Virus record (IMG/VR): IMGVR_UViG_3300031952_005193
Coordinates: 1 to 46,500 of that record
Source: a virus
Strand: one strand, 5' to 3'
DNA length: 46,500 nucleotides
The notes beneath the pieces are model-generated. The model searched no databases. It was not told the origin of the DNA and saw only the letters and a list, made by a program, of their open reading frames with translations. The position numbers and the translations under genes are program-made. Shown here in pieces: positions 6,551 to 46,215 of this stretch (position 1 is the first letter of the stretch; each line of letters begins with the position of its first letter).

Positions 6551-6862
6551 ATGAAACAAGGGAAAAAAACAATTCTGAATATCGCAAAAATGCCGAAAAA
6601 GAATTTATCAGTTGATCAGTTTCTTACTTTGGCTAAAAGGGTTGAACCGACAGCAAAATTGCTTTCGCGTAAAAAGATTTATTCTTTAGAGCAAGGGGCT
6701 TTTCTCGGAGTTCATCGGGATAAAAAAGGAAAGTGGCATCGCCTACACTTAAAAAAGATTTGGATTAAGTATTTTAGTAAGAGCTATGGCACTACGCACA
6801 AGGTTGGTAAAGAAATATTAATCGCAAGTTTTCCTCTACCAAGAGGGTCGGTAATTCAATAA
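6551..6862 (+). CDS. hypothetical basic protein
   Basis: A protein of 103 residues from the ATG at 6551; a TTG three bases earlier is also possible. It is strongly basic. The central part reads LEQGAFLGVHRDKKGKWHRL and continues with a second basic helix around KKIWIKYFSK, which suggests nucleic-acid contact but matches no family I know. It sits between the helicase and a nuclease and probably belongs to the same early transcript. The two-base gap to the next gene (TAATTATGG) is the standard junction style here. Confidence 0.6.
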   Translation: MKQGKKTILNIAKMPKKNLSVDQFLTLAKRVEPTAKLLSRKKIYSLEQGAFLGVHRDKKGKWHRLHLKKIWIKYFSKSYGTTHKVGKEILIASFPLPRGSVIQ

Positions 6863-6864
6863 TT

Positions 6865-7332
6865 ATGGCAGAAAGCGAATTACATAAAAAATTAAAAGGA
6901 AAAGCAATAAATTGGCTTAATCAAACAGGTTGTAGCATAGTGGCAGAGGAAGTGAGTTTTAGGGGAGATTTATTTGATGTGGTGGGAATTAAAGATAATG
7001 GAATTAAGTATTGCGTTGAAGCGAAGGCAACTCAAAAAGATTTGAATGGGGATAGACAGGTTAAAAATACGACTGACTACGGCAAAGGAAATTTTAATTT
7101 TTATTATTTAGTTTTACCAGAAGAATTGAAGCCGGGTTATGAATGGTCAGATTGGGGAATAATCCGGATGTTAAAAGCCGAATATGATTTTGGCGCAGCA
7201 ATCTTCTTACCGCACATAGAGAGGAAAGCCAAGAGATTTGAATCGCTTAAAACCTTTCCAGAAACAATAGAAATAATAATGGCCGTAGCTAAAAAATTAA
7301 CTAATCAAATTTATTATGGTGAGAATAGATAG
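6865..7332 (+). CDS. PD-(D/E)XK endonuclease, MmcB-like
   Basis: A 155-residue nuclease. The core reads LHKKLKGKAINWL (helix with E4 nearby), then SFRGDLFDVVGI with the metal-binding aspartate, then YCVEAKATQKDL, the E-x-K form of the superfamily signature at about residues 51-54. The helix-strand-strand arrangement is like MmcB and other small DNA-repair nucleases. It is the third PD-(D/E)XK-type enzyme in the early region. Its last 17 bases overlap the next gene. Substrate is unknown. Branched or mismatched DNA would fit the surrounding recombination functions. Confidence 0.75.
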   Translation: MAESELHKKLKGKAINWLNQTGCSIVAEEVSFRGDLFDVVGIKDNGIKYCVEAKATQKDLNGDRQVKNTTDYGKGNFNFYYLVLPEELKPGYEWSDWGIIRMLKAEYDFGAAIFLPHIERKAKRFESLKTFPETIEIIMAVAKKLTNQIYYGENR

Positions 7333-7630
7333 AATCATTAAAAGAACCGCCGGCGGATTCCATTGTTGGGTAGAAACTCCGATCGGCATAATTAAAAAGC
7401 TCTGTAAAGATGTTCCGCAGGATCTGTGGGATATTTTTGAGGGACGGCGAAAAGCGCCGAATCCAATAGATATAATTCGTAATCAGCAAATTGAGAACGA
7501 AAAACTTTCTATTAAGTCGCCATTTCTTCCTTCAGAATCAAAGGTCGCAGAGATTAAAATTAACTGGTGGCAAACATTATGGTTAAAGATAAAAGAGATA
7601 TTCTGGAAGATCTTTGGAATGAAACATTAA
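7316..7630 (+). CDS. hypothetical protein with Trp-rich C-terminus
   Basis: A 104-residue protein of unknown function. The first part (RIIKRTAGGFHCWVETPIGI) looks like a small beta domain. The C-terminus, NWWQTLWLKIKEIFWKIFGM (residues 83-102), is an amphipathic Trp/Ile/Lys-rich helix that could lie on a membrane. An AAAGGTCG copy sits within the reading frame at 7540-7547. The final 52 bases overlap the following gene, more than is usual here, so the last part of this frame may be under dual constraint. Confidence 0.55.
   Translation: MVRIDRIIKRTAGGFHCWVETPIGIIKKLCKDVPQDLWDIFEGRRKAPNPIDIIRNQQIENEKLSIKSPFLPSESKVAEIKINWWQTLWLKIKEIFWKIFGMKH
7540..7547 (+). promoter_or_regulatory. AAAGGTCG motif inside a coding region
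   Basis: An exact copy within the preceding reading frame, beginning 39 bases before the ATG at 7579. The spacing matches the intergenic copies, so it may serve the next gene. A chance hit cannot be excluded. Confidence 0.35.
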
Positions 7631-7854
7631 GAGAGGTAGTCAATTCCGAAGTCAAGATCGCGTTGCTTAAAAAACACAAGCCAGACGATGTAATCTATGA
7701 CAAAATTGAGGTCAAAAGAACCTTTGACGGAAAGCCATATCCTCTAAAAAAAGATTACACGGCCAAGATACTTTTGGAAGATGAGGAAAAGAAGTGGCGC
7801 GGCAATTTGGAAGTGTTGGATACTATTAAAGAATTATTAGGAAAAGAAAAATGA
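7579..7854 (+). CDS. hypothetical early protein
   Basis: A protein of 91 residues from the ATG at 7579; an in-frame GTG at 7567 would add four. It is charged and helical at the N-terminus (VKDKRDILEDLWNETLREVV), with a middle VIYDKIEVKRTFDGKPYPL that looks like a beta hairpin. No family is recognised. It overlaps the preceding gene by 52 bases and the next one by ATGA, placing it in the same operon just before the packaging genes. Confidence 0.6.
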   Translation: MVKDKRDILEDLWNETLREVVNSEVKIALLKKHKPDDVIYDKIEVKRTFDGKPYPLKKDYTAKILLEDEEKKWRGNLEVLDTIKELLGKEK

Positions 7855-8318
7855 CAGACGCTACTGAAATAAAACCTAAATTAGAACTCACAAGAGAAGA
7901 GCATCAGGAACTCCGGATCTACTTTTTCATTGGCAGAAAAAACATTATTGAATTAAGTGTATTTCCTATGCCACCGCAAAAAGAAGAAAAGATTATCTTC
8001 GCATTGGCTTACAAATTAGAAGAAGCGTTTGAAAAAGCAAAACTCAAAGAACAGGGCTTTGCTTTGACTTTTAACGGCCAGAGTATGACGGTGAGGGAAT
8101 TGCTATCTCAATTACAGATTAACGAGGTCGTATCGCCGCCTACCAGCGAAGAACCGGCAAAAATAGAAGAGCCAATCCCACCGGCGCAATTAAACTTTGA
8201 AGAGTTCAGAGCAGGTCTTTTATTTACCGCTAATGAAGATGAGATTGTTTATAAAAATCCGGAAGACAGAGAAACTCTTAAAAGGATAATTGAAACATTA
8301 AAATACGCGCCTAAATAG
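7851..8318 (+). CDS. hypothetical protein before terminase
   Basis: A 155-residue acidic protein. Residues 12-75 contain REEHQELRIYFFIGRKNIIE and a following helix, then a Pro/Glu-rich linker (PPTSEEPAKIEEPIPPAQ, about 105-122) and a short C-terminal domain. The two-domain design with a flexible acidic linker is compatible with a packaging accessory or a regulator. I cannot assign it. It ends 44 bases before the small terminase candidate in a gap that holds no clear signal beyond A/T-rich sequence. Confidence 0.6.
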   Translation: MTDATEIKPKLELTREEHQELRIYFFIGRKNIIELSVFPMPPQKEEKIIFALAYKLEEAFEKAKLKEQGFALTFNGQSMTVRELLSQLQINEVVSPPTSEEPAKIEEPIPPAQLNFEEFRAGLLFTANEDEIVYKNPEDRETLKRIIETLKYAPK

Positions 8319-8362
8319 AATGAACTATTTTCAACTAATTTGAACTACTTTAGTAAGAATCT

Positions 8363-8848
8363 ATGGCAAAACATAAATACAAAAAAGGGCATAAAAAGAC
8401 TGGTGGAAGAAAGAAAGGAACAAAGAATCAAGAAACGATAGCAAAAGAAAAAGCATTGGAAACTTATCAGCAAGAGATGTTGAAACTTCTATTGCCTTTG
8501 GTTAGGTCGCAACAGCAATTAGCGAACGGTTTGGTTGTGGTATTACGGCCCGGATTGGTAAAGAATCAAAAAGGGAAACTTGTTAGATCCGGAGAATTAA
8601 AGCAAGTCAGAGATCCGGACGAAATAGAAGAGTTATTTAACAGCGAGGGCGTTGGAAAAGATTATCATATTGTTTTTGCGAAAGATCCGAATGTCAAAGC
8701 GCTATCTGATATTTTTGATAGAGTATTTGGAAAGCCAAAAGAACAATTAGATATAAATCTTGGTTGGAAAAGAAAGAAGTTAGAGGACATTCAAGACAAG
8801 ATGAATTTGGTTATAGATTTCGTTAGTAGAGAAGCCAAAAGAAAATGA
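8363..8848 (+). CDS. terS: terminase small subunit (putative)
   Basis: A 161-residue protein directly before, and overlapping by four bases, the large terminase. The basic start HKKTGGRKKGTKNQETIAKE is the typical DNA-binding opening of many phage small terminases. The segment KALSDIFDRVFGKPKEQLDI (residues 111-130) is a signature seen in the same group of packaging proteins. The small subunit recognises the packaging site and regulates the motor ATPase. Length fits the family. The assignment relies on the motif plus gene order. Confidence 0.75.
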   Translation: MAKHKYKKGHKKTGGRKKGTKNQETIAKEKALETYQQEMLKLLLPLVRSQQQLANGLVVVLRPGLVKNQKGKLVRSGELKQVRDPDEIEELFNSEGVGKDYHIVFAKDPNVKALSDIFDRVFGKPKEQLDINLGWKRKKLEDIQDKMNLVIDFVSREAKRK

Positions 8849-10446
8849 CAAATACTTTATACCCTTCTTTCCTATATCCGAAATTCGCTTTTGATTCCAA
8901 AGGTGATTTTATTGATTGGGATTATAGCCAACAGCAATTAAGATCTTTGATTTTTAACGAAGAGCAGGCGATCCAAACAGATCCGGCTTGGTTAATGGCC
9001 AGAGAGGTTTTTGTTCAAGATGAGAAGCCGTTTGAATTAAGTCCCGGAGAATTGGAAATCTTTAAGTTGATCATCGGCAGGACCTACAAGAGATCAGTCG
9101 TTCTTTGCTCAACTCAATACGGAAAGACATTGACCATAGCCAGAGGAATTTTAGTCAGAATAGCCAACCGAGCCGAAGAATGGTTGATAATCGTGCCTGA
9201 TGTGAAGCGCGGCAAGATTCTTTTGAATTATATTATTAAGGACACGGCCGAGAATGATTATTTCAAAGACAAACTGATCGGGGTGAAAATGGAAGATCGC
9301 ACGGCTTTGGAAAGATTGCTGGAAGAGAGAAGCAAACTTAAACTGACTTATCAAATAATTGAAAAAGAAAAAACAAGGTATTCGTCAATAGAAATCGTTT
9401 CAGCAGACGCGAGAAGAAGAACAGATACCATCAATTCCATTATGGGTTTTGGCGGAAGGAATATAATCTTTGATGAAGCGCCTTTGACAGATGACGAGGT
9501 AGATGCCGGTGTGTTCAGAATGATAGCAGGAAAAGGCGAAGATACTTTTCTGGTTAAAATCGGCAATCCTTTTTACAGAAATCATTTCTTAAAAGATTGG
9601 CGAAATCCGAACTATATGAAAATTTGGATTGATTACCGGATAGGTTTGGCAGACGGCAGATACAATGAGGAGTTTATTAACGAAGCGAAATTAAAACCGA
9701 AGTTTGATGTTTTGTTTGAATGTAAATTTCCGTCAGAGGAAGCGATAGATACTTTGGGTTGGTCGCCATTAATTACTCAAACGGAATTGGAACAAGCGAT
9801 GACAGATGATTTTAATCCTTTTGGCTTTCCAGCAATGGGCGGAGATCCGGCAGACGAAGGCGAGAATGAAAGCGTGATAGTAGTCAGATGGCGCAATGTG
9901 GCGAAGATAGATTTTGCTTCTAATAAAATCGCACTGATGGAATTTTGCGGAAAGATGGCCCAGACGATTGATCGCTATAAAATTGATGTGAGAACTTGCT
10001 CGGCAGATAAAGTGGGAGTTGGCGCTATGATCCCGGCCGAAATGAAACAGATAGGCAAACCAATTCAAGGAGTTAATGTCGGTGAGGTTTGCGAAAGTCC
10101 GGAGAATCAAGTTCAGTTTATAAATAAAAGAGCAGAGTTTTCTTGGGCCGTAAGAGAGTGGATTAAAAGCGGTGGAAGATTGTTGCGAGATCCAAGATGG
10201 TATCAGTTATTGAATATCAAATACAAAGAAGATCTCAAACGCAGATTAAGAATTATGCCGAAGGCCGATATGAGAAAGCAGGGGATCGCCAGTCCGGACG
10301 CTTTTGACGCTTTGCTTTTAACCTTTGCGCGGCCGCAGATTTATTATACAAAGACCATCGCAGAGGAATTTTTTGAAAAGAAAATGCGAGGGCAATCGCA
10401 GAAGAAAAGGCCCAAAGATAAACCTTTTAAGATGACCGGATATTAA
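8845..10446 (+). CDS. terL: terminase large subunit
   Basis: A 533-residue packaging motor. The ATPase half has a Walker-A-like CSTQYGKT with K94, and Walker B NIIFDEAP with D210 and catalytic E211. The nuclease half has MGGDPADEGENE with D334, SADKVG with D388 and SPDAFDAL with D485 and D488, which are the acidic residues of the RNase-H-like nuclease fold that cuts concatemers. Walker A is atypical (C-S-T-Q-Y-G-K-T), as in other large terminases. It follows the small terminase by ATGA overlap and precedes a zinc-ribbon gene and the portal, the usual order. Confidence 0.95.
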   Translation: MTNTLYPSFLYPKFAFDSKGDFIDWDYSQQQLRSLIFNEEQAIQTDPAWLMAREVFVQDEKPFELSPGELEIFKLIIGRTYKRSVVLCSTQYGKTLTIARGILVRIANRAEEWLIIVPDVKRGKILLNYIIKDTAENDYFKDKLIGVKMEDRTALERLLEERSKLKLTYQIIEKEKTRYSSIEIVSADARRRTDTINSIMGFGGRNIIFDEAPLTDDEVDAGVFRMIAGKGEDTFLVKIGNPFYRNHFLKDWRNPNYMKIWIDYRIGLADGRYNEEFINEAKLKPKFDVLFECKFPSEEAIDTLGWSPLITQTELEQAMTDDFNPFGFPAMGGDPADEGENESVIVVRWRNVAKIDFASNKIALMEFCGKMAQTIDRYKIDVRTCSADKVGVGAMIPAEMKQIGKPIQGVNVGEVCESPENQVQFINKRAEFSWAVREWIKSGGRLLRDPRWYQLLNIKYKEDLKRRLRIMPKADMRKQGIASPDAFDALLLTFARPQIYYTKTIAEEFFEKKMRGQSQKKRPKDKPFKMTGY

Positions 10447-18424: not shown

Positions 18425-18841
18425 ATGAAAATAGTGGCAGTTTCGGGCGGTTTTGATCCAGTTCATTTCGGGCATATCAGATATTTCCGATCGGCGAAAA
18501 AACTGGGAAAGGTTATCGTGATCTTAAATTCAGACAGGTTTTTGAAAAAGAAAAAAGGATTTGCCTTAATGCCTTATAAAGAAAGAAAAGAGATCTTGGA
18601 AGCGATCCGGTATGTAGATAAAGTGATTCCTTGCATAGATAGGGATCAGTCAGTTTCTAAAACATTGGCAAAGTTGAAACCGGACATTTTTGCCAAAGGT
18701 GGGGATAGAACAATCAAGAATATCCCTGAAAAAGATGTGTGCAAAAAGTTAAAAATTAAAATGAAATTTCTGGTGGGTGGAAAGAAAGTCCAATCATCAA
18801 CAAGATTATGCCAAAACTTAAAATCCTTTGGTCGTCAGTAA
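18425..18841 (+). CDS. cytidylyltransferase-like nucleotidyltransferase (TagD/RfaE-C type)
   Basis: A 138-residue nucleotidyltransferase of the HxGH family. The N-terminal strand and turn GGFDPVHFGHIRYFRSAKKL contain the H14-F-G-H17 signature for nucleotide binding. KGGDRTIKN near residue 94 and the SSTR motif near 126 complete the active site. Relatives make CDP-glycerol (TagD/GCT) or ADP-heptose (RfaE C-domain). It overlaps the next gene, a glycosyltransferase/methyltransferase fusion, by 34 bases, so it likely supplies an activated sugar or polyol for the same modification. Confidence 0.88.
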   Translation: MKIVAVSGGFDPVHFGHIRYFRSAKKLGKVIVILNSDRFLKKKKGFALMPYKERKEILEAIRYVDKVIPCIDRDQSVSKTLAKLKPDIFAKGGDRTIKNIPEKDVCKKLKIKMKFLVGGKKVQSSTRLCQNLKSFGRQ

Positions 18842-20667
18842 CCCCAACAATAGAATCAGGATACGGAAGAGTGAGTAGGGAAGTTGTAACGCGCTTGGTT
18901 GATCGTGGATATGATGTGATGTATCACGGTTATCAAACGATGGGAAAACTTCATACCATAAATGGCAAGATTAAAATGCTTGATTGCGGTGGTCCGGAAT
19001 ACGGAATGAATGTGCTTGGAAGATATTTTGAACAATATAAGAGAGATATTCTGATCACCCTTTATGACTTATGGGCCTTCTTTGGAAAAATAGAAAAGGT
19101 CAATGCGGCGTGGATACCTTACTTTCCGATAGATGCAGAACCGGTTTCAATCCCTCAATCAGATCCTCTGCGATATGCCTATAAAAGAATTTGTTTTTCA
19201 AAGTTTGCATTAAGGGAATTAAAAAAAGTCAACTTGGGTGCAGAGATAATTTATCACGGAGTTGACACCAAAATTTACAAACCATTCACGGAAGAAAAAA
19301 AGAAAGCGATCAGGAAGAAAACAGGGATTCCGGAAAATGCTTTCTTGGTAGGAACGAATGGCGCGAACACTTGGGATAGAAAAGATTTTCCGAGAATGAT
19401 CAGGATATTTGCAGAGTTCGTTAAAAAGAATAACGCCAAAGACGCATTGTTTTACCTTCACGCCAATCCAGACGGATTGGAAGGCAAGGCGTATTCTTTA
19501 ATTGAATTAGCCAAACTTTACGGTATTCCAAAACAGATGAGATATGCTCATCAAAAGAATCAGCTTTTTGATAGCGGTTTGGCGAAAATGTATAACACTT
19601 TAGATGTTTATCTTACGGCTTCAAGGGCCGAAGGTTGCGGATTGCCGATATTAGAGGCGCAGGCCTGCGGAGTGCCGGCAATCGTTCCAAACAATTCAGC
19701 GCAACCTGAATGGGTAGAAGGACACGGTTGGGTAGTTCCTTGTTCTGATCATATAGTTACTTTGACCACTCCTCTTCATAATAAATGGTATTTGATGGAT
19801 GTAGAGAAGGCGGTTGAGGCCCTGACAGAAGCGTATCAGAACAAAGAATTGCGCTTGAAATACGGAAAAGAAGCGAGAGAGGCAATGCTTCAATACGACT
19901 GGGATAAAATCGTTGACGAGCAATGGCTTCCGTTCCTTCAAAAAGTGGAAGAAGAAATCACTACCGGGATTGTCAAACAAGAGGCGGAAGGAAAAGTTTA
20001 TAATATGCGGATAAACAAGATTGATCGGACAGTAGTGTATATGGTCGTTATTTTTCAAGAGTATGGAAAATATCTGGATCTGACGAAAGACGATGTCTGG
20101 TTAGATGTCGGCGGCCATATTGGCACTTTCTCCATAGACACTTCGGACAAAGTTAAACAGATCTACACATTTGAACCAGAGTTGGGCAACTACGCCATTT
20201 TAGAGAAGAACATTGCCGAAAATAAAATAGAGAATGTTTTGATTTTTAATGAAGCGGTTGTCGGCAATGACGATCAGGAAAGAGAATTTCATTTGGACGA
20301 AAGCAGAAATACCGGTGGACATTCCTTCATTGCGGCCGAAGGCAAGAAAATAATAAAAGTGAAGTGCCGGAACATCAACGAGATTTTGAAAAGTTATAAC
20401 ATTAACAAGGTAAAAATGGACTGCGAAGGCGCAGAATACGAAATTATTAAATCAATGGATCTGACCAATATCAAGGAATTGATAATGGAGTTTCACTTCA
20501 ACCTTTTGGGATTGACGAAGTTTGAAGAACTGGTGGCCCTTTTAAGACAGAAATTTGAGGTAGTTCAGACAGACAAAGTGATCAATCCGTATGGTCAGGG
20601 TAAAATTTATTGTGGAAGTTCCAAGATTAAAAACAAAGGTCGTGAGGAACAAAAAATTATTAACTAA
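18808..20667 (+). CDS. glycosyltransferase (GT4-like) fused to FkbM methyltransferase
   Basis: A 619-residue two-domain enzyme. Residues 1-370 form a GT-B glycosyltransferase: TIESGYGRVSREVVTRLVDR at the N-terminus, and the donor-site region RAEGCGLPILEAQACGVPAI. Residues 405-600 form an FkbM-type SAM methyltransferase with LDVGGHIGTFS starting at L432, then FEPELGNYAILEKNI and a MDCEGAEYEII motif. Such fusions transfer a sugar and O-methylate it. Placed inside the virion gene block with a nucleotidyltransferase, it probably decorates a phage structural protein or alters host surface glycans. The start overlaps the nucleotidyltransferase gene. The last codons contain an AAAGGTCG copy. Confidence 0.9.
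   Translation: MPKLKILWSSVTPTIESGYGRVSREVVTRLVDRGYDVMYHGYQTMGKLHTINGKIKMLDCGGPEYGMNVLGRYFEQYKRDILITLYDLWAFFGKIEKVNAAWIPYFPIDAEPVSIPQSDPLRYAYKRICFSKFALRELKKVNLGAEIIYHGVDTKIYKPFTEEKKKAIRKKTGIPENAFLVGTNGANTWDRKDFPRMIRIFAEFVKKNNAKDALFYLHANPDGLEGKAYSLIELAKLYGIPKQMRYAHQKNQLFDSGLAKMYNTLDVYLTASRAEGCGLPILEAQACGVPAIVPNNSAQPEWVEGHGWVVPCSDHIVTLTTPLHNKWYLMDVEKAVEALTEAYQNKELRLKYGKEAREAMLQYDWDKIVDEQWLPFLQKVEEEITTGIVKQEAEGKVYNMRINKIDRTVVYMVVIFQEYGKYLDLTKDDVWLDVGGHIGTFSIDTSDKVKQIYTFEPELGNYAILEKNIAENKIENVLIFNEAVVGNDDQEREFHLDESRNTGGHSFIAAEGKKIIKVKCRNINEILKSYNINKVKMDCEGAEYEIIKSMDLTNIKELIMEFHFNLLGLTKFEELVALLRQKFEVVQTDKVINPYGQGKIYCGSSKIKNKGREEQKIIN
20635..20642 (+). promoter_or_regulatory. AAAGGTCG motif, copy 7, in the tail of a coding region
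   Basis: The motif lies within the last 33 bases of the glycosyltransferase-fusion gene and begins 47 bases before the ATG at 20682, the same distance as copy 6. Confidence 0.5.
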
Positions 20668-33159: not shown

Positions 33160-34266
33160 ATGAAAACATTACCAGACGGTAGAATCCAAGTAGAAAAAGG
33201 CGATACTCTTTATGGTATCTATGGGCCAAATTGGAAAGCGCTTTCCGGCTATACCGGTGATCCTACCAAATTACCAATAGGAACTATTTTACCTGCCAAA
33301 ACAGGTGGAACTGTGAAGGCAGGTACAGTAGTAAAAGAATCAGCGCCAGCTCCAGCACAAACTTCTACTGGCGGAGTAAATTGGACTGCTTATTATCAGG
33401 GTGTTTTAGCTAATCCAACAGCAACAGAATCGGCAAAGGCGGAAGCAAGACAAAAATTGGCAGCTATTACGCCTGTAAAGAAAGGAGAAGAAGGGAAAAA
33501 AGAAGAGGAAAAAGTTCCTGACTGGCTTGCCAGTAATGATTATTTCAAACAATTATCTCCTGACGATCAAACATACCTAATAAATTACTACAATATCCTG
33601 AAAGTCAACGATACCGAGAAACAGAATATCTTAAAGCAAGCATTTATAGACGCGCAAGCATCTGCCGATCCTTATTTTAAAGAAAAGATAAGAATGGCCC
33701 AAGACGAATTATTAAGGGCTTTGGGAGAGCAAAAAACTGATTTGGCATCAAAACAAAAAGATCTGACACAAAAGATTGAAGATATTAAAACTGATTTAGC
33801 CACCGGCACAGGAAGATTAAGTATAGATGAGCAGGCAGAATTGGCAAGGCAACAAAGGAACTACGAATACGAACTGGAAAATTTAAGAGAAACTGCCGCT
33901 ACATCCGGATTGACTTTTTCAAGCAGAAGGGCTTTGGCAGAAGGCAGGTTAGCTACTGAACAGACAGATATTGTAGAAAGCACCAAAAGATCTTTCCAAA
34001 GACAGATAGAAGATCTCCAAACAGCAGCAGCGAGAGGCGATAGGGATGCGCAGAATCTATTATCAGATTACGAAAGGATTTATGGCGAGAATGTTACGAA
34101 ATTAGGCAGGGCAACAGAAACATATTTAGGAACTACTGGTTTGCCTTCTGACTTGAAAGGATACCGACCATTGGGCGGAGTTGTTGGGACTTTGGAAGAA
34201 GAGAAATTGAAAGATATAACGCAAAGGGCCGAAGCATTAGCTAATTTAAGAAATCCATTTTTATAA
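33160..34266 (+). CDS. internal virion protein with LysM-like N-terminus
   Basis: A 368-residue protein. Residues 4-47, beginning LPDGRIQVEKGDTLYGIYGP and ending TILPAK, form a LysM-like or related small domain (K-G-D-T-L near the start). A Pro/Ala linker follows. Residues 145-330 are long helices rich in Glu, Gln, Arg and Ala (DLASKQKDLTQKIEDIKTDL), a coiled coil. The domain is repeated at the N-terminus of the next gene. Its position before the giant polyvalent gene suggests a co-ejected or core protein that may contact peptidoglycan on entry. Confidence 0.6.
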   Translation: MKTLPDGRIQVEKGDTLYGIYGPNWKALSGYTGDPTKLPIGTILPAKTGGTVKAGTVVKESAPAPAQTSTGGVNWTAYYQGVLANPTATESAKAEARQKLAAITPVKKGEEGKKEEEKVPDWLASNDYFKQLSPDDQTYLINYYNILKVNDTEKQNILKQAFIDAQASADPYFKEKIRMAQDELLRALGEQKTDLASKQKDLTQKIEDIKTDLATGTGRLSIDEQAELARQQRNYEYELENLRETAATSGLTFSSRRALAEGRLATEQTDIVESTKRSFQRQIEDLQTAAARGDRDAQNLLSDYERIYGENVTKLGRATETYLGTTGLPSDLKGYRPLGGVVGTLEEEKLKDITQRAEALANLRNPFL

Positions 34267-35237: not shown

Positions 35238-38200
35238 ATGTCAATTTTGGATACCTTAAATAAAATTGAGGAATCCAAGAAGAAAAGAGAAACTGCTGGA
35301 GAAATTATTGGTGTGGAGAAAGAAAAACTGCCACCGCTTTCAGAAGTTAAATTGAAAGAGCAGGCAGTAAAGAAAACAGAATTTGAGAAGCAGATGGAAG
35401 AAGTGAAAAAAGCACCTTCTTGGATACAAATCTTACCGGGAGAACTCCTGCGGACAGCAGGGGGAATCTTAGGTTATGAGCCGGGAATGCTTGCGGAATA
35501 TAAAGAATTAACCAAAGGTCAGAAATGGTATGAACAAGTTTGGGGAGTGGCAAAAGAAGTTCCCGGAGCAATAGAAAAAGTTGGCAAAGAAATTGTCAAA
35601 GCGCCTTTTAGAGTTGCCGCGACAATAGTTGAACCGTGGATAAACACGGCTTATGGGTTAGAACCTATTGAGGAAAAACCAATCAAGTTGCCAGTTTTAG
35701 GAGAAGTTCCGACAATGTTTTATTCTTACCAGCAAATGAGAAAAGCCGGTATGTCGCCTTTAGAATCTGGGTTAATGGCAGGATCTCAAACTGCTTTGGA
35801 TCTTGCGATTAGTGCAGGTTTTGCGCAATACTTTTTGAGTAAATTTCCAGTCAAAGTCAATTCAGGAGAATTTACACCAACCGTCAAACCAGATGGAAGT
35901 TTGAAAATGACATTTGGAAAATCACTCAAAGATACCAAGCCCATAATGAAAGAGGCGAAGTATTACAATATGGGAAAAGTCAGGAATCCGATTGGCGGAA
36001 CTTCTGATATGGTTTTAGAAGTTGTGCCTACGGCTTCAAAAACAATTAAGATTACCGGATATAATATAAGCCCTTCTCAATTTCAATATAATCTCAATCA
36101 AATAGGAAGAACATTAAAAGAAATCGGGATTACCTATACCCAGCAACCGCCAGAAGTCAGAAGTATTATCTTGCCAGATACCGTAACTGATTTGATGGCC
36201 GGTAGGTTAACAGCACCACCGCCTGCTGCTGGGTTAACGGTTGTGCCACCTCTGGTAGTCAAACCGCCAGTAACGCCAGCGCCTGCACCGGTAGCACCAG
36301 AAATGATTACACCGCCAACACCAAAAACTCAATTAGAAAAAGTAAGCGAGATTATAACAAAAGTAGAAGCAACTAAAGCGGTCCAACCGACAGCACCAAA
36401 GTTACAGATCACCGCCAAAGGGAAAAAGGCATTAGGTAAAGAATTAGTGCCAGAGGAAAAAGTTGAATTAGAAACCGCAGAAGAAATGGAAAAATTAAGA
36501 GCCGAAGCTGAAAAAGCCAGAAAAGAAGCACTTTCATCAACTTTTGAAGAAGCAATTTCCAAAGCAGAAAAAGAAGGCGCAAAATCAATTTATAAAACTC
36601 CTTACACCCAAGCCGATTACATAATAGCAAAGATATTTGCCGGCGAACCGATTCCTGAAGAATTAAATAGTTTAGCAGTAAATATGGTAGAACAAGGAGG
36701 ATTAGAGCAAGTCCCAAAAGGGCAGGGAACGGAAATTGATATGGCAGGAATGTTTTTTGAAACCGAAGAAACAATCAAAGAAGGCAGAAAATATAGTTAT
36801 AAATTCCTTTCGCCGGAAGATGGCGGACTTGATAAAGCAACCTATGAAGAATTTTATGAGAAGAATTTAGACGAAGTAAGCAAAATGGACTGGAGAGAAT
36901 TACAGGAAGGAAGTGGAGTTGAAACTAAATTAAAAATGGGAGATCTGATTTCTTCAAAAGAGATCCCTGATTTCAAGACAGTTACCAAAGGTAAAAACAA
37001 AGGAAAAGTATTGGAGATTCCGGGCTTTGGAATTGTCCAAGATATTTTTGATGATGGCAGTATGATCGCCATTACGAAAGACGGATACCAAAAACTTGAT
37101 TTTTATGGAGTGAAAGAAGTTTTAGAAGCTGAATTAACAGAAGGTGATAAAACTAAAATCGCTGAATTAAGAGATCTGGAAGAAAATCCACAGAAAATAA
37201 AAAAGGCCGTTCCAAAGGAAAAGCCAGTTGAAAAAGTTAAACCAGAAAGAATTTACGCACCTTCAGAGGAAGGCGCAGTTGCGATTTCAGTAGGTGGAGT
37301 AACCTCAATTCCTTCTTCCAAGATACCACCGACAGCACCTACCTTGCGGAAACTTTTGGAAGACTTATCAAACATTTCAGCAAAAAGCACACCGTTTTCT
37401 TCGGAAACTTTGAAGATCCCATCGGAGGTTTTCAAGAAATATAGAAATTTAATTGAAGAAGTTTTTTCTGCCATAAATAAAGATGATACTATTCTATCTT
37501 TATTATACAAAAAAGCAGTAGATAATGTCAATAGTTTAGCGAAATTATCAAAAGACCTCGCACCAGATGGCCAAGTTAGGATTGATATTAAAACTCCAAA
37601 TAGTATTGTTGAAAAAGTAATCATAAAAAGAATACAAGGCGATGAAAATTATACATTTGACGATATTAACGATGTTTTGAGAGCAACGGTAGTTGCTAAA
37701 GATAAGATGGAGATCTCGGAAATGATCGCGAAGATTGATGAGAAAATTATTATCGGAGATACTGATTACTTTGCCACTCCAAATAAGTATGGTTATAGAG
37801 GTCGGCATATTGATATTAAATTGGAAAGTGGTCAGATTACAGAAATTCAATTTCATACTCCGGAAACATTAAAAGTAAGGACAGAACTTTATAAGACGAT
37901 CTATAAAAATAATCGTATTTTGGATAAAATCTCTCCAGAAGTTCTGAAAAAAAGCAATGGAATTGCCAACCATATTTTAGGCGAAGAGGGAGTGGAGATT
38001 ACCGGAGAGGTCAAGAAACTGTTGGGAATAAAAGAAGTAAAGAAGCCACCTGTTATTAAACCAGAAGTTAAGTCAGAGAAAATCAAACCTGAACCGACGG
38101 AAGAAGAAAAACCGATTCCTTATGAATTAACCGGTAAAGGAGAGAAATTTGTAGGAAGAGTAAAAACAATAAGAAAGATGGCGATTAAAGAATTTCCTGC

Positions 38201-41200
38201 CACAGAAAATAGAGCAAGGATAGAAAAGAAGATTTTTGATAACTTTTCATCATTTGCCCTTACATCCTATGCCTTACCAATTTTAAATAGTATCGCCATT
38301 GATGGAAACAAAATTATCGCAACTGATTTGGAATCAGGTTTGGTCTATACCGGCAAAACCGATTTCAAGAAAAAAGTGGTATTGCCGGCGAAGTTTTTAA
38401 AAGGGAAAGGAATCCCAGACATTGAAGAGTTAATAGCCAGAGTTCCTACTGAATTTAAGTTTGAAGATTATCCAATGATTCCAGAATTGCCGAGAAAAGA
38501 TTTGATAGAAAGCACTATTATCCGACTTGATCCAAAAACTTTAACAAAAGCGATTTCCTCAATAAAAAAAGAAGAACGCTGGGGTGCTGGCAGGCCAGAG
38601 ATACAAGGAGTATATTTCCATCCGACTTCTGATGGTTCAGGAATGGTAGTTGTTTCAACTGATTCATTTAGGTTATGGAAACAAACATTGCCAGTTCCTA
38701 CCGGCAAGGATTTCAAATTTATCTTGCCAAGACAAAGTGCTGTTAGATTACAGAAAATTCTGGATAAAGTCAGGCCCGATGGCAATTTGATAAGAGTTAA
38801 ATTTACAAAAAACCAGATAAGTTTTGAATTTGATAATTTTACATTTTATAGCAAATTGATAGAGGGAGATTATCCAGCTTATGACGCAAAAGATATTGGA
38901 TTACTCGGTAAAAAGATGGAAACCACTTTTGAAGTAAATAGAGAAGAAATTTTAGATGTCTTACAAGAAGCCAAACCTTATATTGCAAAACTAAATGATG
39001 TCGGATTAAGTGTTGATCCAAAGAAAAATACTCTAAAAATTACGGCCACTACCTTCAAAAAAGAGATCCCGGTAGTCATTGAAAAAAATGTTAAGACAAA
39101 TCCGGCAGACGATCAGTATATTTTGATGCAGATAAAAAATGATGTTGGAATAGAAGGAACAAGCTATTTCAATGTTAATTTCTTAAACGATTTCTTAAAA
39201 AATGCGCAATCTGAAAAGGTTACTGGTTCTTTGATGAAAAGCCAAGATGCACTTACTGTTTGGAAGGAAGTTTCTATTGAACAAGAAGCAAAATTCGTCA
39301 GAGATTTGGGAAAGAGAGTTTATATTCCAGCCGAAAAAAGTAAAGAATTTATTATGGACCTATTGGAAAAGTCCTCCAGCAAACCTTATATCAAGAGAAA
39401 ACAATCCTTTGTAACCTTGCAATTAAAAGACAGGGGATATTTCTTCGGGAGAGAACAAACCGTTCAAGGGCCGGATGATATAGCCGATTTGATGAGGGAG
39501 TTAAAAAACCACGATAGGGAGAAATTTTATTTAGTTGATTTGGATAAAAATGGAAAGATACTTATGATTGACAATGTTTCAGTTGGAACTGTAGGCTCGG
39601 CTATGATTCATCCTCGTGAAGTATTAAAATCGGTTATCCTTTCTGGATCTAAAAAAGTTTATCTTGTTCATAATCATCCTTCTGGAAATGTTCAAGCGTC
39701 AGAAGATGATATTATAATAAATACAAGACTGAATAAAGTATTGAAAGAATTAGAAATTGAACCTCAAGGGCATCTTATTATGAATAGAGTGGGTTACGGA
39801 TTTTTGTCGCCAGAAGGAGATTTTACAGAAATGAATATGCCCTTAGAAACACGCCAAAGAGCAAAAATGAGAATGGTAGAAATAGAACAAAGATTTCAGG
39901 ATTTGCCAGAAAAGATAGATAAGCCAATAAGGCGAGCAGATGATGTGGTAGATGTGATGGGATTGGTTCTCAATCGGGAATCTCCAACTATTGTCGGTTT
40001 ATATTTAGATGCTCGGAATAAAATAAACGGGATTGAAATTATAGATTTTTCTTTAAAAGATCCTCACAAAATAGGAAGAAGAATAATGCGGAATTCTGTT
40101 TTGAACAATGCCGTTGGTATTATTTTGGGAACTAATAAAATTTTATCTGGTGATCCAACTATCGCCGCCTTTCAGGTAATTGAAGATAAGTTAAAACTTC
40201 TTGGTGTAGATTTGATAGATGTAGTAGATCTCCAGAAGTCAAGTTTAATTTCAAGAAAACTCATTGGTAAAGATAGGGCAACAATGCCCTATGAAGTTAC
40301 GAAAACATTTGATAAATATGCCGTAAGAGAGCCAGAAGCCGAATACGGAATGTTTACTCCCGAAGAACAAGAAGCCCTTACTTATATCCAAAAAGGAGAA
40401 CCAGTTCCTGATAATTTGAAAAGTGCAGTTCAAGGATTGATAGATAAAGGAATAATCAGAACGGCAAAAGTTAAAGTGTCACGAGTAAAAAAGCTGGAAG
40501 AGATGACCGAGTTGGAAAAGAGAGTTGTCCAACAGGCATTTGTGATTAAGAAACTTTCACCAACAATTTTCAATCGTATAAAGAATGTTATTAGCGGACA
40601 CAAGAGAACTAAAATTTACGATCTAACAGAAGCGCAACAAACCGAATTATTAGAATCTCTTATAGATTTAACTCCTGAAAAATTTGGAAAGATAAAACTG
40701 GTTAATGAAGAAACTTTAGAAGCAATGAGAGATTTTATCCCACCAAGCGTTTTAGAAAGAAGATTTATCACTACCGGCGACATTATGAAAAACCTTGACG
40801 AAAAGCAGGTAGATTATCTGGTTTCATTATCCAGACCTATCAGAAATGTTTTAACTAATGGAACTTTAACTCCCGATCACCGGAAAATTGGAGAGAAGAT
40901 CTATGACACCATCAGCGAAACCGAAGAAAACTACAAGATAGAATATCAGGAATGGCACAATAAATTTAGAGGACTTTATAATGAAGCCAGAAAAGTTGAT
41001 AAAAATGTGGATCTAAATGTCTTTGGCTATATAGAACAAAGTTGGCAAGTTCCAGCAAAGACACAAGAATTAGCCGAGTTTCTTAAAACCTTCTATGCAG
41101 ATTCGCTGCCGGTAATGAAACCGAGAAGAATCCGCCAGAAATACATCACTCATACTGCGCCTGCTTTCTGGGAAAAAGTCAATTCCGTAGGTTTAAGAAA

Positions 41201-42920
41201 TACTATCAAAGAAGTCGTTTCAGAAAGTATTGATCAAAGAGAAGGAATTTCTCCGGCAATTATGGCAGCTTTGGAATACATCACATCTAAAGTAAAATTC
41301 AATCCTTATGCCTTACCGAGATCTCAATACGCGGCTTACAGCAGGCAATTAAGGAAAGCCGTGCCGGGCTATGCTTCCTTGTATTTTTACAAGAAAAATT
41401 TTGATCCAATAATGCCGAAGGTTTTAATAATGAAGAGATTTTTACCCGGTAGCACGCAGGTTTATGTTACCAAATATCTTCAGACAGTTGGCGGTAGACC
41501 ATTAGATTTCAGATTATGGCAAAGTCCAGTAGGTAGAACTCTTAAAAAAGCAATAACTTTAGGAGTGAGATTTGAATACGGAACATTGTTAGGGCTTAAC
41601 TTTAGTTCGGCTCTTGGCAATATCGCAGGTGGAACAATAACTAATATCGCCGATATGAAAGCCGGACAGATAGCATTGGGACACCAGAGATTAGCAACAA
41701 AACAAGGAATAAAGATTTTGGAAAAATATAGATTAACTGAACAAACACTTTACCTTGATCCGGTAGGCGGAACTTGGGATAAGTTAAGCAAATTGGAAAA
41801 GGGATTATTCGGTTTAATGCAGGGCGGTGAATTCTATTTAAGAGGATCAACTTCTTTGGGATTGATACCCAAAAATGAATTTAAGACAGGCGTTTTAAGT
41901 TCTGAAACCAGATCCATTATCAGAAGGCAAATAGGAAGGACGCAAGGTTTGTTCGGACCAGCACAAGCAGCATTAATATCTCAAACGACATTATTAAGGC
42001 CTGTCTGGATGTTCAAGCATTGGATGGTAAATGAGATGGAATTGCTGCACAGTTTTTCAAAAGATATGGTTTCAACGATCCGGAAAAATAAAAGTTGGTA
42101 TGGAAGAACGGTTAAAAACAAAGGATTAGTCAGTATTACGAAATGGGCTTTGTTGATGTTCTTATTATATGCTTACGGCCCGGAATTTTTGAAGAAAGAA
42201 GTCCGGCAGGTATTAGGAGTGCCGGTATCTTTATTCAAGGGTTTCTTATCGTGGGCTGATAGCGTTCCTTTGGTTGAGGATACTTTTACCGCAATGAATA
42301 TCATAGTCAGGTTGGGAAATAATGAGATAGCGGAGGCAAGGGAAGATTTCCAAAGTTGGTTGCTTTCAAAACCGGCATTTTCAAAGTTTAGGAATTTCTT
42401 TAATGCTTACACAAAAGGAATGACCGTTACTCCTGATGGTTATGTTCAAGAGAAAATTGATAAGACAGAGGCATTCAAGAGATTATTTGTAGGAAGTTAT
42501 ACCGTCAGACAACAAACAGAGAAGAGATTGAATGAGGAATTAAGCAAAATATTGCCAATGGATACCTATACCAAGTGGGATTATACCTTTGGCTCAAGAA
42601 AAATTAAGACAGATTATCAGCGAGAAAAAGAAAAAATAATGAAAGCGATTGAAGATAAAGGATATTGGAATCCGGAAGAACAAAGTATAAAAATAGACAA
42701 AGAAATTGAAAGAATGTATGGAGTTTATAACGGCCAAGTTAAAAACAGGTTAGATAAATGGTTTGAGGAAAGAGATAAATTAACTGGCGAAACTTCTACC
42801 CAAGATGAAAAAGATTCAATGTTATTAAAAACAACTATACAAGATACGGATATTGCTAATTGGTTTGAAACAGCTTATGAACTGCGAACAGTCCCCAGAA
42901 TTCTGCGGAGAACAAGATAG
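35238..42920 (+). CDS. giant polyvalent protein: RelA/SpoT-like, DnaN clamp and tandem RadC domains
   Basis: A 2560-residue protein, probably packaged and injected like other phage polyvalent proteins. In order: N-terminal helical region with hydrophobic stretches (about 60-200); Pro-rich linker (318-350); charged helices (360-440); a RelA/SpoT-like domain (735-915) with DDINDVLRATV, GYRGRH (852-857) and EIQ (869-871); a DnaN-like sliding clamp (about 975-1345) with LPIL (1013-1016), TDSFRLW (from 1141) and EGDYP (1209-1213). Next come RadC/JAB domain 1 (1395-1525) with HNHPSG at 1478-1483 and S1488/D1491, and degenerate RadC domain 2 (about 1570-1670), which has GTNKILSGDP in place of the metal site. 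The remaining 850 residues are mostly helical, with a membrane-like segment WALLMFLLYAYG near 2303. The single open frame is uninterrupted. Confidence 0.85.
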   Translation: MSILDTLNKIEESKKKRETAGEIIGVEKEKLPPLSEVKLKEQAVKKTEFEKQMEEVKKAPSWIQILPGELLRTAGGILGYEPGMLAEYKELTKGQKWYEQVWGVAKEVPGAIEKVGKEIVKAPFRVAATIVEPWINTAYGLEPIEEKPIKLPVLGEVPTMFYSYQQMRKAGMSPLESGLMAGSQTALDLAISAGFAQYFLSKFPVKVNSGEFTPTVKPDGSLKMTFGKSLKDTKPIMKEAKYYNMGKVRNPIGGTSDMVLEVVPTASKTIKITGYNISPSQFQYNLNQIGRTLKEIGITYTQQPPEVRSIILPDTVTDLMAGRLTAPPPAAGLTVVPPLVVKPPVTPAPAPVAPEMITPPTPKTQLEKVSEIITKVEATKAVQPTAPKLQITAKGKKALGKELVPEEKVELETAEEMEKLRAEAEKARKEALSSTFEEAISKAEKEGAKSIYKTPYTQADYIIAKIFAGEPIPEELNSLAVNMVEQGGLEQVPKGQGTEIDMAGMFFETEETIKEGRKYSYKFLSPEDGGLDKATYEEFYEKNLDEVSKMDWRELQEGSGVETKLKMGDLISSKEIPDFKTVTKGKNKGKVLEIPGFGIVQDIFDDGSMIAITKDGYQKLDFYGVKEVLEAELTEGDKTKIAELRDLEENPQKIKKAVPKEKPVEKVKPERIYAPSEEGAVAISVGGVTSIPSSKIPPTAPTLRKLLEDLSNISAKSTPFSSETLKIPSEVFKKYRNLIEEVFSAINKDDTILSLLYKKAVDNVNSLAKLSKDLAPDGQVRIDIKTPNSIVEKVIIKRIQGDENYTFDDINDVLRATVVAKDKMEISEMIAKIDEKIIIGDTDYFATPNKYGYRGRHIDIKLESGQITEIQFHTPETLKVRTELYKTIYKNNRILDKISPEVLKKSNGIANHILGEEGVEITGEVKKLLGIKEVKKPPVIKPEVKSEKIKPEPTEEEKPIPYELTGKGEKFVGRVKTIRKMAIKEFPATENRARIEKKIFDNFSSFALTSYALPILNSIAIDGNKIIATDLESGLVYTGKTDFKKKVVLPAKFLKGKGIPDIEELIARVPTEFKFEDYPMIPELPRKDLIESTIIRLDPKTLTKAISSIKKEERWGAGRPEIQGVYFHPTSDGSGMVVVSTDSFRLWKQTLPVPTGKDFKFILPRQSAVRLQKILDKVRPDGNLIRVKFTKNQISFEFDNFTFYSKLIEGDYPAYDAKDIGLLGKKMETTFEVNREEILDVLQEAKPYIAKLNDVGLSVDPKKNTLKITATTFKKEIPVVIEKNVKTNPADDQYILMQIKNDVGIEGTSYFNVNFLNDFLKNAQSEKVTGSLMKSQDALTVWKEVSIEQEAKFVRDLGKRVYIPAEKSKEFIMDLLEKSSSKPYIKRKQSFVTLQLKDRGYFFGREQTVQGPDDIADLMRELKNHDREKFYLVDLDKNGKILMIDNVSVGTVGSAMIHPREVLKSVILSGSKKVYLVHNHPSGNVQASEDDIIINTRLNKVLKELEIEPQGHLIMNRVGYGFLSPEGDFTEMNMPLETRQRAKMRMVEIEQRFQDLPEKIDKPIRRADDVVDVMGLVLNRESPTIVGLYLDARNKINGIEIIDFSLKDPHKIGRRIMRNSVLNNAVGIILGTNKILSGDPTIAAFQVIEDKLKLLGVDLIDVVDLQKSSLISRKLIGKDRATMPYEVTKTFDKYAVREPEAEYGMFTPEEQEALTYIQKGEPVPDNLKSAVQGLIDKGIIRTAKVKVSRVKKLEEMTELEKRVVQQAFVIKKLSPTIFNRIKNVISGHKRTKIYDLTEAQQTELLESLIDLTPEKFGKIKLVNEETLEAMRDFIPPSVLERRFITTGDIMKNLDEKQVDYLVSLSRPIRNVLTNGTLTPDHRKIGEKIYDTISETEENYKIEYQEWHNKFRGLYNEARKVDKNVDLNVFGYIEQSWQVPAKTQELAEFLKTFYADSLPVMKPRRIRQKYITHTAPAFWEKVNSVGLRNTIKEVVSESIDQREGISPAIMAALEYITSKVKFNPYALPRSQYAAYSRQLRKAVPGYASLYFYKKNFDPIMPKVLIMKRFLPGSTQVYVTKYLQTVGGRPLDFRLWQSPVGRTLKKAITLGVRFEYGTLLGLNFSSALGNIAGGTITNIADMKAGQIALGHQRLATKQGIKILEKYRLTEQTLYLDPVGGTWDKLSKLEKGLFGLMQGGEFYLRGSTSLGLIPKNEFKTGVLSSETRSIIRRQIGRTQGLFGPAQAALISQTTLLRPVWMFKHWMVNEMELLHSFSKDMVSTIRKNKSWYGRTVKNKGLVSITKWALLMFLLYAYGPEFLKKEVRQVLGVPVSLFKGFLSWADSVPLVEDTFTAMNIIVRLGNNEIAEAREDFQSWLLSKPAFSKFRNFFNAYTKGMTVTPDGYVQEKIDKTEAFKRLFVGSYTVRQQTEKRLNEELSKILPMDTYTKWDYTFGSRKIKTDYQREKEKIMKAIEDKGYWNPEEQSIKIDKEIERMYGVYNGQVKNRLDKWFEERDKLTGETSTQDEKDSMLLKTTIQDTDIANWFETAYELRTVPRILRRTR

Positions 42921-43182: not shown

Positions 43183-44229
43183 ATGATATTTTTCAAGAAG
43201 AAACCAAAAGTTAATATAGAAAGTTTAGGAGTAATTGACGATCCGAGATCTGAAGAGGAAAAGAAAAAAGATTATAAAGCAGAAGAAATTTTAGCTGCTT
43301 TTGCGCCTATTGAGTGGAAAGAAAAGCCGGAAGCGGAATGGCGAAAATATCCTGTTTTTTACCAAGACCAATCAAGCTCTTGTGTAATTCAAGCAGTCGC
43401 CAAAGCATTAGGAATTGAAAATTATTTGGAAGAAGGAAAATTTATTCATTTGTCTGCCAGAGATGGTTACACAAGAAGAATGAATTATCCGGATCAAGGA
43501 ATGTTTTTTTTAGACGCAATGAATATCGGCTACAAATTTGGTTTAACCATAGAACAACTAATACCATCTCAAGGTTTAGACGAAGCAGCAATGAATATCT
43601 CATCTGACAGAAGTCCTTTAACTGAAATGATAGCCAAGATTGTCAAAGGTGGTAATCACTTCTCTTTTTCGCCAGATATTGAGCAGATAGCTTCCATTGT
43701 TGAACCGACCGGGAAACCAGTTGTAATAGGAGTAAGGTTCGGACCTGATGAATGGTTCGGAAAGAAAATCCCTCAAATTTTGAATAGTCAAGGAATTTGG
43801 GGACACGGAATTTGCGTTACCAATACTACATTATATCAAGGTAAGAAAGCTCTGATTATAGAAGATAGCGCCTACTATGATCCAACTAATGAGGCAGTCA
43901 GGATAGTTACGGAAGATTGGTTTAAGGCAGGCAGGATAACTTGGTCAGGATATTATCAATTTCTGAAGAATGACGGACTACCAACAAGGCCCACTTACCA
44001 ATTTGTGAAAGATCTTAGATACGGAATGGTTAGCGATCCGGATGTTGTTAAATTACAAGAGTGTCTGGCTTATCTGAAGTTTTTTCCGAGTAGTGTAGAA
44101 TTTACCGGAAACTTCTTTGGAAGAACATTAAAAGCAGTAAAAGATTTCCAAGAAGCCAACGGTATCACGCCGGTATCGGGATTCGTCGGCCCGATCACCA
44201 GAAATAAATTAAACGAATTATTCGTCTAA
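43183..44229 (+). CDS. endolysin: papain-like cysteine peptidase with peptidoglycan-binding domain
   Basis: A 348-residue lysin. The catalytic domain (about 45-265) is papain-like: YQDQSSSC with oxyanion Q63 and C67, then WGHGICVTN with H208, then IIEDSAYYD with D228 as third residue. The C-terminal domain (282-348) is a PG_binding_1 module: DPDVVKLQECLAYLKFF, then FGRTLKAVKDFQEANGITPV and GFVGPITRNKLNEL. The wording of this module is typical of Parcubacteria cell-wall proteins. The catalytic domain would cut peptide cross-links. There is no signal peptide, so export would need the holin in the next gene. Confidence 0.85.
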   Translation: MIFFKKKPKVNIESLGVIDDPRSEEEKKKDYKAEEILAAFAPIEWKEKPEAEWRKYPVFYQDQSSSCVIQAVAKALGIENYLEEGKFIHLSARDGYTRRMNYPDQGMFFLDAMNIGYKFGLTIEQLIPSQGLDEAAMNISSDRSPLTEMIAKIVKGGNHFSFSPDIEQIASIVEPTGKPVVIGVRFGPDEWFGKKIPQILNSQGIWGHGICVTNTTLYQGKKALIIEDSAYYDPTNEAVRIVTEDWFKAGRITWSGYYQFLKNDGLPTRPTYQFVKDLRYGMVSDPDVVKLQECLAYLKFFPSSVEFTGNFFGRTLKAVKDFQEANGITPVSGFVGPITRNKLNELFV

Positions 44230-45282: not shown

Positions 45283-46215
45283 ATGAAATTTATAGAAGCT
45301 CTTAATAAATTCAACGAATGGAGAGAGTTTAAGGTCGGCAAAAGAACGGTAATGGGATATGATATATCCCTCCGGTATTTCTGCATCTTTGTAAAAAATG
45401 CCGAGATAGAAAGCATAAAATTGGAAGATTGCTTGGAATGGCTAAAATGGATAAGAGATTTGGGTTTTGCTGTAGCCACTTTGGAAAAGAAAGCCATTGC
45501 TCTTAAAAAATTCTTTGAATTTTGGTGGGAACAAGGAAAATTGGTTATCAATCCTTCTTTAATTCCGTTGCCGCCAAAGTGTTTTAAATTTCCAAGAGTA
45601 GCGAGTGAAGAAGATTATAAAAGGGTTTTAGCTGTTATCCCTCCTGACTCCGGATATTATTGGCACATTAGAAACCGGGCATTGATTACTTTACTATGGG
45701 ATAGCGCAGCAAGAATCGGAGAAGCACTTTCTTTAAATGTGCAGGACACAGATACAAAAAATCAGAAGGCAGAGATTCATACTGAAAAGACAAAAGGTTT
45801 TTTGCCTTTCAGACAAATTTTTTGGACTGAAGATACAAATAACAATATAATGAAATGGATTGAAAGAAGGAAAAAGGAATTAACAATGTGGAATTTAAAA
45901 GAAATCAAAGATCCGGATGCGCTTTTTGTTAGCATTCACGGCGGAAAGGGAAGCTGTATGGGTAAGTCAAACAGAATGGAAATGGCAGCCGTTACTGAAA
46001 TGATAAGGAAATACTCAAACAAAGCCGGATTGGAAAAACCCTTGAATCCTCACTCTATGAGGCATCATCGTGGCAGAGAGTTGGCGATGCAAGGCGCGAA
46101 TAATTCTGTGATCTCTTCTATTTTGGGACACGCAAACTTATCCAGTTCTTATCCCTACACTATACTTGCTGGAAAAGATTTGGAAAGCCAATTTAGGAAT
46201 TTTGTCGGGAAATAG
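45283..46215 (+). CDS. int: tyrosine recombinase / phage integrase
   Basis: A 310-residue integrase with a SAM-like N-terminal domain (residues 1-95) and a catalytic domain (110-310). The catalytic set is complete: R in SAARIGEAL, K in TEKTKG, H-x-x-R in HSMRHHRGREL, H in LGHANLSS, and the nucleophilic Tyr in YPYT about nine residues later. The enzyme would insert the phage at an att site, so the phage is probably temperate. It has its own leader with a strong SD 12 bases upstream. No paired att repeats can be identified in one window, and no excisionase is clear, although the small basic gene after it is a candidate. Confidence 0.95.
   Translation: MKFIEALNKFNEWREFKVGKRTVMGYDISLRYFCIFVKNAEIESIKLEDCLEWLKWIRDLGFAVATLEKKAIALKKFFEFWWEQGKLVINPSLIPLPPKCFKFPRVASEEDYKRVLAVIPPDSGYYWHIRNRALITLLWDSAARIGEALSLNVQDTDTKNQKAEIHTEKTKGFLPFRQIFWTEDTNNNIMKWIERRKKELTMWNLKEIKDPDALFVSIHGGKGSCMGKSNRMEMAAVTEMIRKYSNKAGLEKPLNPHSMRHHRGRELAMQGANNSVISSILGHANLSSSYPYTILAGKDLESQFRNFVGK

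Follow-up and report, generated by a model that had tools for sequence, protein, structure and literature searches.

A RelA/SpoT-type synthetase domain in a multidomain phage protein

We identified a RelA/SpoT-type synthetase (SYNTH) domain within a 2,560-residue multidomain protein of the polyvalent type (35238..42920, + strand, from the ORF listing), encoded by an uncultivated tailed phage. All positions refer to the window, the stretch of 46,500 nucleotides that we analysed and that comprises a whole IMG/VR virus record; the domains and motifs of this protein lie on the + strand throughout. On balance, we favour the reading that the domain is a probably active 3′-pyrophosphokinase, which would most likely produce (p)ppGpp and be delivered together with the phage DNA as one of several enzymatic payloads that a temperate podovirus-like phage carries in this polyvalent-type protein. 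This reading draws on the observed fold, family, active-site residues and gene position of the domain as well as on the payload swapping around it.

The Pfam profile PF04607 (RelA_SpoT), a family against which the initial annotation had suggested a search, matched the ORF above its gathering score with 31.8 bits versus a cut-off of 27 (E 1.9e-7; residues 784–890, 37587-37907), and reached 37.5 bits (E 9.1e-11) in the genome-wide search. An independent profile, derived from 20 viral homologues with the window left out, retrieved the same ORF (35238-42920) at E 2.3e-11, with the runner-up among the 179 window ORFs at 0.008. Since PF04607 exceeded its cut-off and the independent profile matched as well, the resemblance is not due to chance, and a chance motif match could be ruled out.

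The AlphaFold2 model calculated for residues 701–925, with 20 viral relatives as input alignment, yielded a pLDDT of 82.7 and a pTM of 0.78. It superimposed on RelQ with a Z of 14.9 over 165 residues (3.2 Å), followed by RelP (Z 14.2), Tas1 (12.8), CapRel (12.7) and SaEAS (12.4), and on FaRel2 with a Z of 7.9. As the five leading RSH enzymes reached Z values of 12–15 versus about 8 for the nearest non-RSH chains, an unrelated fold could likewise be ruled out; none matched better. Among viral models, the best matches came from uncultured Caudovirales and were RelA/SpoT or polyvalent-type proteins, of which several reach about 1,000 residues or more. Together, these data confirm a genuine RelA/SpoT-type SYNTH domain of the SYNTH (Pol-β-type) fold, although its identity to any yardstick synthetase is only about 25%. 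The domain spans residues 744–924 (37467..38009; PF04607, AlphaFold2 model and fold matches), these limits being the folded part alignable to known structures. The initial annotation had placed a RelA/SpoT-like nucleotidyltransferase domain at 37440-37990, close to this folded segment, and profile, fold and catalytic residues bear that assignment out.

The SYNTH domain is flanked by two P/E/K-rich linkers detected by composition scan, one preceding it (residues 623–688, 37104..37301) and one following it (residues 920–991, 37995..38210). Downstream lies a region resembling the DNA polymerase III β sliding clamp (residues 1012–1340, 38271..39257; PF02767, phrog_947, TIGR00663 and PDB clamps), for which the PDB clamps matched at E 5.5e-12 and the TIGR00663 match stayed below its cut-off. 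It is followed by a RadC/JAB domain (residues 1405–1519, 39450..39794; PF04002, E 4.9e-28) containing the sequence HNHPSG (39669-39686). A second, weak RadC-like stretch appeared at residues about 1560–1640 in a two-sequence comparison (E 0.005). The protein ends with a C-terminal core (residues 1703–2560, 40344..42917) that is 57% identical to that of a related phage (L003); its structural model had a pLDDT of 40.6, too poor for a fold search or for probing injection. By eye, short look-alike stretches were seen at AGEPIPEELNSLA... (36615-36707, residues about 460–490) and KGEPVPDNLKSAV... (40371-40457, residues about 1712–1740), and stretches of this type are also present by eye in L003; a self-BLAST of the protein gave no match for this similarity.

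Active-site residues combine features of two synthetase types

We compared the active site with two sets of yardsticks, eight canonical synthetases and 21 enzymes of the Apk/EAS type. As the latter were chosen by the pattern E[IV]QFHTPE[ST], their unanimity at residues 869–877 is built in and the syn4 comparison is partly circular (the set having been found via QFHTPE), whereas positions 815, 817, 843, 852 and 857 were unselected. The motif strings quoted in the initial annotation were all in frame within the ORF, with RIDIKTPNSIVEKVIIKR at residues 781–798, DDINDVLRATVV at 808–819, GYRGRH at 852–857 and EIQFHT at 869–874.

In the syn1/ATP loop RIDIKTPNSIVEK (residues 781–793, 37578..37616), the alignments showed that K785, S789 and K793 are kept. 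Of the R-x-K-S loop previously proposed here, the Lys and Ser thus align, but there is no R-x-K, with D783 at the Arg position. The syn2 motif, which had been read as D-I-x-x-x-R, in fact takes the D-x-x-R-x-T form: DVLRAT (residues 812–817, 37671..37688) provides the Mg/catalytic D812, the ATP-contacting R815 and an Apk/EAS-type T817. The syn3/acceptor (G) loop DYFATPNKYGYRGRH (residues 843–857, 37764..37808) includes D843, G852, Y853 and H857 and is of the canonical (p)ppGpp type with G855, in line with the G-Y-R-x-x-H motif recognised earlier as GYRGRH. Finally, syn4 EIQFHTPE (residues 869–876, 37842..37865) carries the catalytic E869 and Q871 together with the F-H pair of the Apk/EAS branch.

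K785, K793, D812, E869, Q871 and T874 are common to all yardsticks, and Y853 to all but one. R815 and T817 occur in 21/21 Apk/EAS enzymes versus 0/8 canonical ones, whereas D843, G852 and H857 are found in 7–8 of the eight canonical enzymes and in none of the 21 Apk/EAS enzymes. D812 aligns with D121 of SaEAS, whose D121A exchange renders that enzyme dead, and R815, E869 and Q871 align with its ATP contacts R124, E182 and Q184; H857 corresponds to N169, and SaEAS K154 is without a counterpart in the window (PMC12691689). The catalytic Asp (D812) and Glu (E869), the Tyr of the acceptor site (Y853) and the Lys residues of the ATP site (K785 and K793) are all present. The RxK Arg, which is common but not universal among active members, is missing, and this does not place the domain outside the fold family.

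Published marks distinguish synthetases of (p)ppApp from those of (p)ppGpp by RYT versus xxR in syn2, GxN versus SxH in syn3 and YH versus IR in syn4 (PMC12226406); the window has R-A-T, G-R-H and F-H at these places, respectively. Of the Apk syn2 motif, R815 and T817 are kept but the Tyr is Ala; the Apk form of syn4 (Y/F-H) is present in EIQFHT (residues 869–874), whereas syn3 reads G855-R-H857 rather than GxN. Conversely, the canonical syn2 (D..GxR) and syn4 (Q[IL]RT) are replaced by DVLRAT and QFHT, whereas of the canonical acceptor loop DY..GYRSxH the residues D843, Y844, G852, Y853, R854 and H857 are kept but the Ser is G855. Judged by its motifs, EIQFHT is not random decay but, together with DVLRAT, a signature of the Apk/EAS branch (Tas1, MuF-Apk2, SaEAS). 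The earlier remark that EIQFHT might alter the activity can thus be sharpened: F/Y-H and the syn2 R-x-T form the Apk/EAS signature (PMC12226406), combined here with an acceptor loop of the (p)ppGpp type. At the level of sequence the domain is a mosaic: syn2 and syn4 resemble those of Apk enzymes, syn3 is mixed, and the acceptor loop otherwise follows the (p)ppGpp type. This combination would place the domain on a deep branch of its own. In the trees the window formed a long branch alone, for which joining the canonical, the RelV-like or the Apk/EAS enzymes was not rejected, and kinship as a clade was favoured neither with the canonical nor with the Apk/EAS enzymes.

These motifs raise the question of whether the domain might be an adenosine 3′-pyrophosphokinase toxin of the Apk type, making (p)ppApp and draining ATP as do the MuF-Apk2 prophage toxins and Tas1, which we regard as rather unlikely. 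Such an assignment would agree with the R-x-T of syn2 and the F-H of syn4 (PMC12226406), with an A2 profile whose top PDB matches were SaEAS and Tas1, with the lack of the RxK Arg in Tas1 too, and with the same hallmark in MuF-fused phage relatives. The acceptor loop, however, has GxH with D843 and G852 instead of the GxN and Asn of the Apk enzymes, a combination found in 0/21 of them. Moreover, Apk genes are linked to immunity genes, the Aph1 hydrolase and IapK, but profiles detected no HD-type hydrolase (PF13328, HD_4) in the window, a record that may be a fragment, and in the ORF listing the ORF is not followed directly by a short gene that could encode an immunity protein.

Equally pertinent is whether the domain catalyses any reaction at all. 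We consider it unlikely that, with little or no catalytic activity, it acts as a structural element, a decoy or a sensor within a virion protein, even though it lost a conserved Arg (D783) and the loop Lys and sits on a very long branch, because all other catalytic positions are kept despite about 25% identity to any yardstick, and both Tas1 and RelV-like proteins tolerate loss of the Arg. Indeed, the RxK Arg is replaced by Pro in Tas1, by Gly or Gln in RelV-like proteins, by Ser and Val in two viral relatives (L024 and L029) and by Glu in an Actinomycetota protein (L044); as it is thus also missing in the active Tas1 and in these other proteins, its absence by itself is no sign of an inactive enzyme. 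In the mutational study of V. cholerae RelV by Dasgupta in 2014, K107, D129, R132 and E188 were reportedly essential. These residues correspond to K106, D128, R131 and E187 in a RelV-like locus (L073), and all four positions are kept in the window. In the viral relative L024, a phage ORF of 1,043 residues (6615-9743) carries its Apk/EAS-type domain at the N-terminus, and there too the RxK Arg is missing.

The best single-sequence match within 398 sampled Pseudomonadota genomes was a RelV-like exported small alarmone synthetase (SAS) with the syn2 sequence DLARATIV (E 2.9e-8). A characterised RelV relative, VpEAS, produces pppGpp only (PMC12691689). RelV-like enzymes have Asn or Lys at the position of H857, so that the acceptor-loop rule is not a clean one.

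Phage context and proposed delivery

The genes surrounding the ORF point to a temperate podovirus-like phage as the source, because they encode a terminase distantly related to those of P22-like and other phages and a portal and an adaptor with weak SU10-type matches, in addition to a capsid protein, an endolysin and a tyrosine integrase. Upstream of the ORF, the product of a gene at 33160..34266 (+ strand) weakly resembles a DNA ejection protein (phrog_4287, E 0.004). The next gene downstream (43183..44229, + strand) is endolysin-like with a peptidoglycan-binding domain, and the integrase follows at 45283..46215 (+ strand), the latter providing the temperate-phage context. Between the capsid and the tail-side genes, the window also contains a cytidylyltransferase-like gene and a fusion of a glycosyltransferase with an FkbM methyltransferase (18425-20667).

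The polyvalent protein of L003 (6494-12601 of that contig), which has the C-terminal core in common with the window, is encoded at the same location, with tail-side genes on one side and endolysin and integrase on the other. Its payload preceding the core consists of a DnaJ domain and an HExxH motif (EHEVVH, by eye) and not of RelA/SpoT, clamp and RadC. Payload is thus exchanged around a conserved core between the two phages, as expected of polyvalent proteins. Furthermore, RelA/SpoT, β clamp and RadC reside in one phage polypeptide with structural genes nearby, as is typical of this class. By analogy with known polyvalent proteins, and considering the gene position and the podovirus-type genes, packaging of the protein into the virion and its injection are plausible.

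As an alternative, the protein might be made late and stay unpackaged in the producing cell, its alarmone playing a part in assembly or in the final phase of infection. We consider this quite unlikely: packaging is argued by analogy and modelling yielded no usable structure for the C-terminal core, which leaves room for late action, but a very large multidomain protein among podovirus-type structural genes, and a conserved core with swapped payload at the same gene position in L003, as in polyvalent proteins (PMC5512222), speak against it.

For the favoured reading of an injected (p)ppGpp synthetase, the late gene position after the ejection-like gene and the podovirus-type portal and adaptor counted in favour, whereas D783 in place of the RxK Arg, the missing K154 equivalent and the unsettled branch placement in the tree counted against. 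The SYNTH domain would transfer pyrophosphate from ATP to the 3′-OH of a purine nucleotide, for which GDP/GTP is the probable acceptor and ATP a less likely one. D812 and E869 would coordinate Mg2+ and activate the acceptor, whose base would stack against Y853. Given an acceptor loop of the (p)ppGpp type, (p)ppGpp is the likeliest product, perhaps along with some (p)ppApp as in the promiscuous SaEAS. Delivery with the phage DNA would then raise the alarmone at entry and thereby reduce rRNA synthesis, replication and translation of the host, and the clamp and RadC units could meanwhile serve the incoming genome. Reprogramming of the host at entry, as already envisaged in the initial annotation, we infer by analogy to the class, for which it was proposed by Iyer et al. 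2017 (PMC5512222).

A bolder version, which we hold to be very unlikely, would regard the domain as a third deep alarmone-synthetase lineage with an Apk/EAS-type donor site and a (p)ppGpp-type acceptor loop that enters the host linked to clamp and RadC, so that an alarmone pulse at entry curbs ribosome synthesis and replication in the host and the same polypeptide meanwhile seeds phage replication or repair. Least probable of all is pyrophosphorylation of the tRNA 3′-CCA end that stops translation, as by the toxSAS FaRel2 and CapRel, which belong to phage–host conflict (PMC11559606): the fold matches CapRel (Z 12.7), but FaRel2 more poorly (Z 7.9), values that by themselves do not decide the substrate, and the acceptor loop looks nucleotide-type.

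Relatives and known systems

Searching viral contigs with peptide patterns, including EIQFHTPET, returned no close homologues of the domain, for which reason purifying selection on the active site was not measurable. Relatives collected via the terminase were short contigs only, from which the polyvalent gene was absent. With tblastn, the domain retrieved a single phage record, gene 6 of the Nitrososphaera provirus Pro-Nvie1 (E 2e-4). Scanning genome contigs for EIQFHTPET gave mostly Xanthomonas loci and the one Actinomycetota protein used above (L044); the NCBIfam XopAD model, which matches the window, suggests that the Xanthomonas loci are XopAD-type effectors (PMC12691689).

RelA/SpoT domains in phage polyvalent proteins were described by Iyer et al. 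2017, who proposed an alarmone-like response and found RadC limited to polyvalent proteins of conjugative elements; a text search of that study returned neither sliding clamp nor DnaJ (PMC5512222). As in those phage proteins, SYNTH is here one unit of a giant multidomain polypeptide, but RelA/SpoT, clamp and RadC occur together in one phage protein. Structure matches also place SYNTH in large phage proteins of the BFVD, namely A0A6J5Q8J2, A0A6J5MFM5 ('ART-PolyVal-like') and A0A6J5KIV2 ('DdrB-like'). The kind is hence already known, whereas the motif mix, the fused β clamp and RadC and the payload swapping look new. The list of polyvalent domains gains a sliding clamp, and RadC is now seen in a phage polyvalent protein.

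With Apk2 (MuF) and Apk1/Tas1 the domain has in common the syn2 R-x-T, the syn4 F/Y-H and QFHTPE, and Apk2 is likewise fused to a phage head protein, but the window is without a MuF domain, has an acceptor loop with GxH and D843/G852 rather than GxN, and lacks a recognised immunity gene. Exported synthetases such as RelV and VpEAS resemble it in syn2 (DLARATIV versus DVLRATVV), the GYR loop, E[IV]Q[FIL]H and the lack of the RxK Arg, but RelV-like proteins, a label assigned by features rather than by a curated model and to which the tree does not firmly join the window, are free proteins of about 260 residues with a signal-like N-terminus and GYRDLN instead of GYRGRH. RelQ and RelP share the fold (Z 14–15), the G-loop DY..P..GYRxxH and the catalytic D, E, Y and K, yet differ in the RxK Arg, the register of the syn2 Arg and the syn4 QIRT. 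Pro-Nvie1 gene 6 (Rel_Spo-like) has GYRGxH in common with the window, but is a free 210-residue gene between portal and capsid with canonical syn1, syn2 and syn4.

If active, the domain would be a phage-borne alarmone synthetase available as soon as infection begins. As a natural mosaic of Apk-type donor motifs and an RSH-type acceptor loop, it may also serve to probe the choice between A and G, a problem left unsolved by exchanging motifs in Apk2 (PMC12226406). A further phage ORF (L037, 12099-13913) joins a Zeta-toxin domain (PF06414) to a synthetase domain of the Apk/EAS type.
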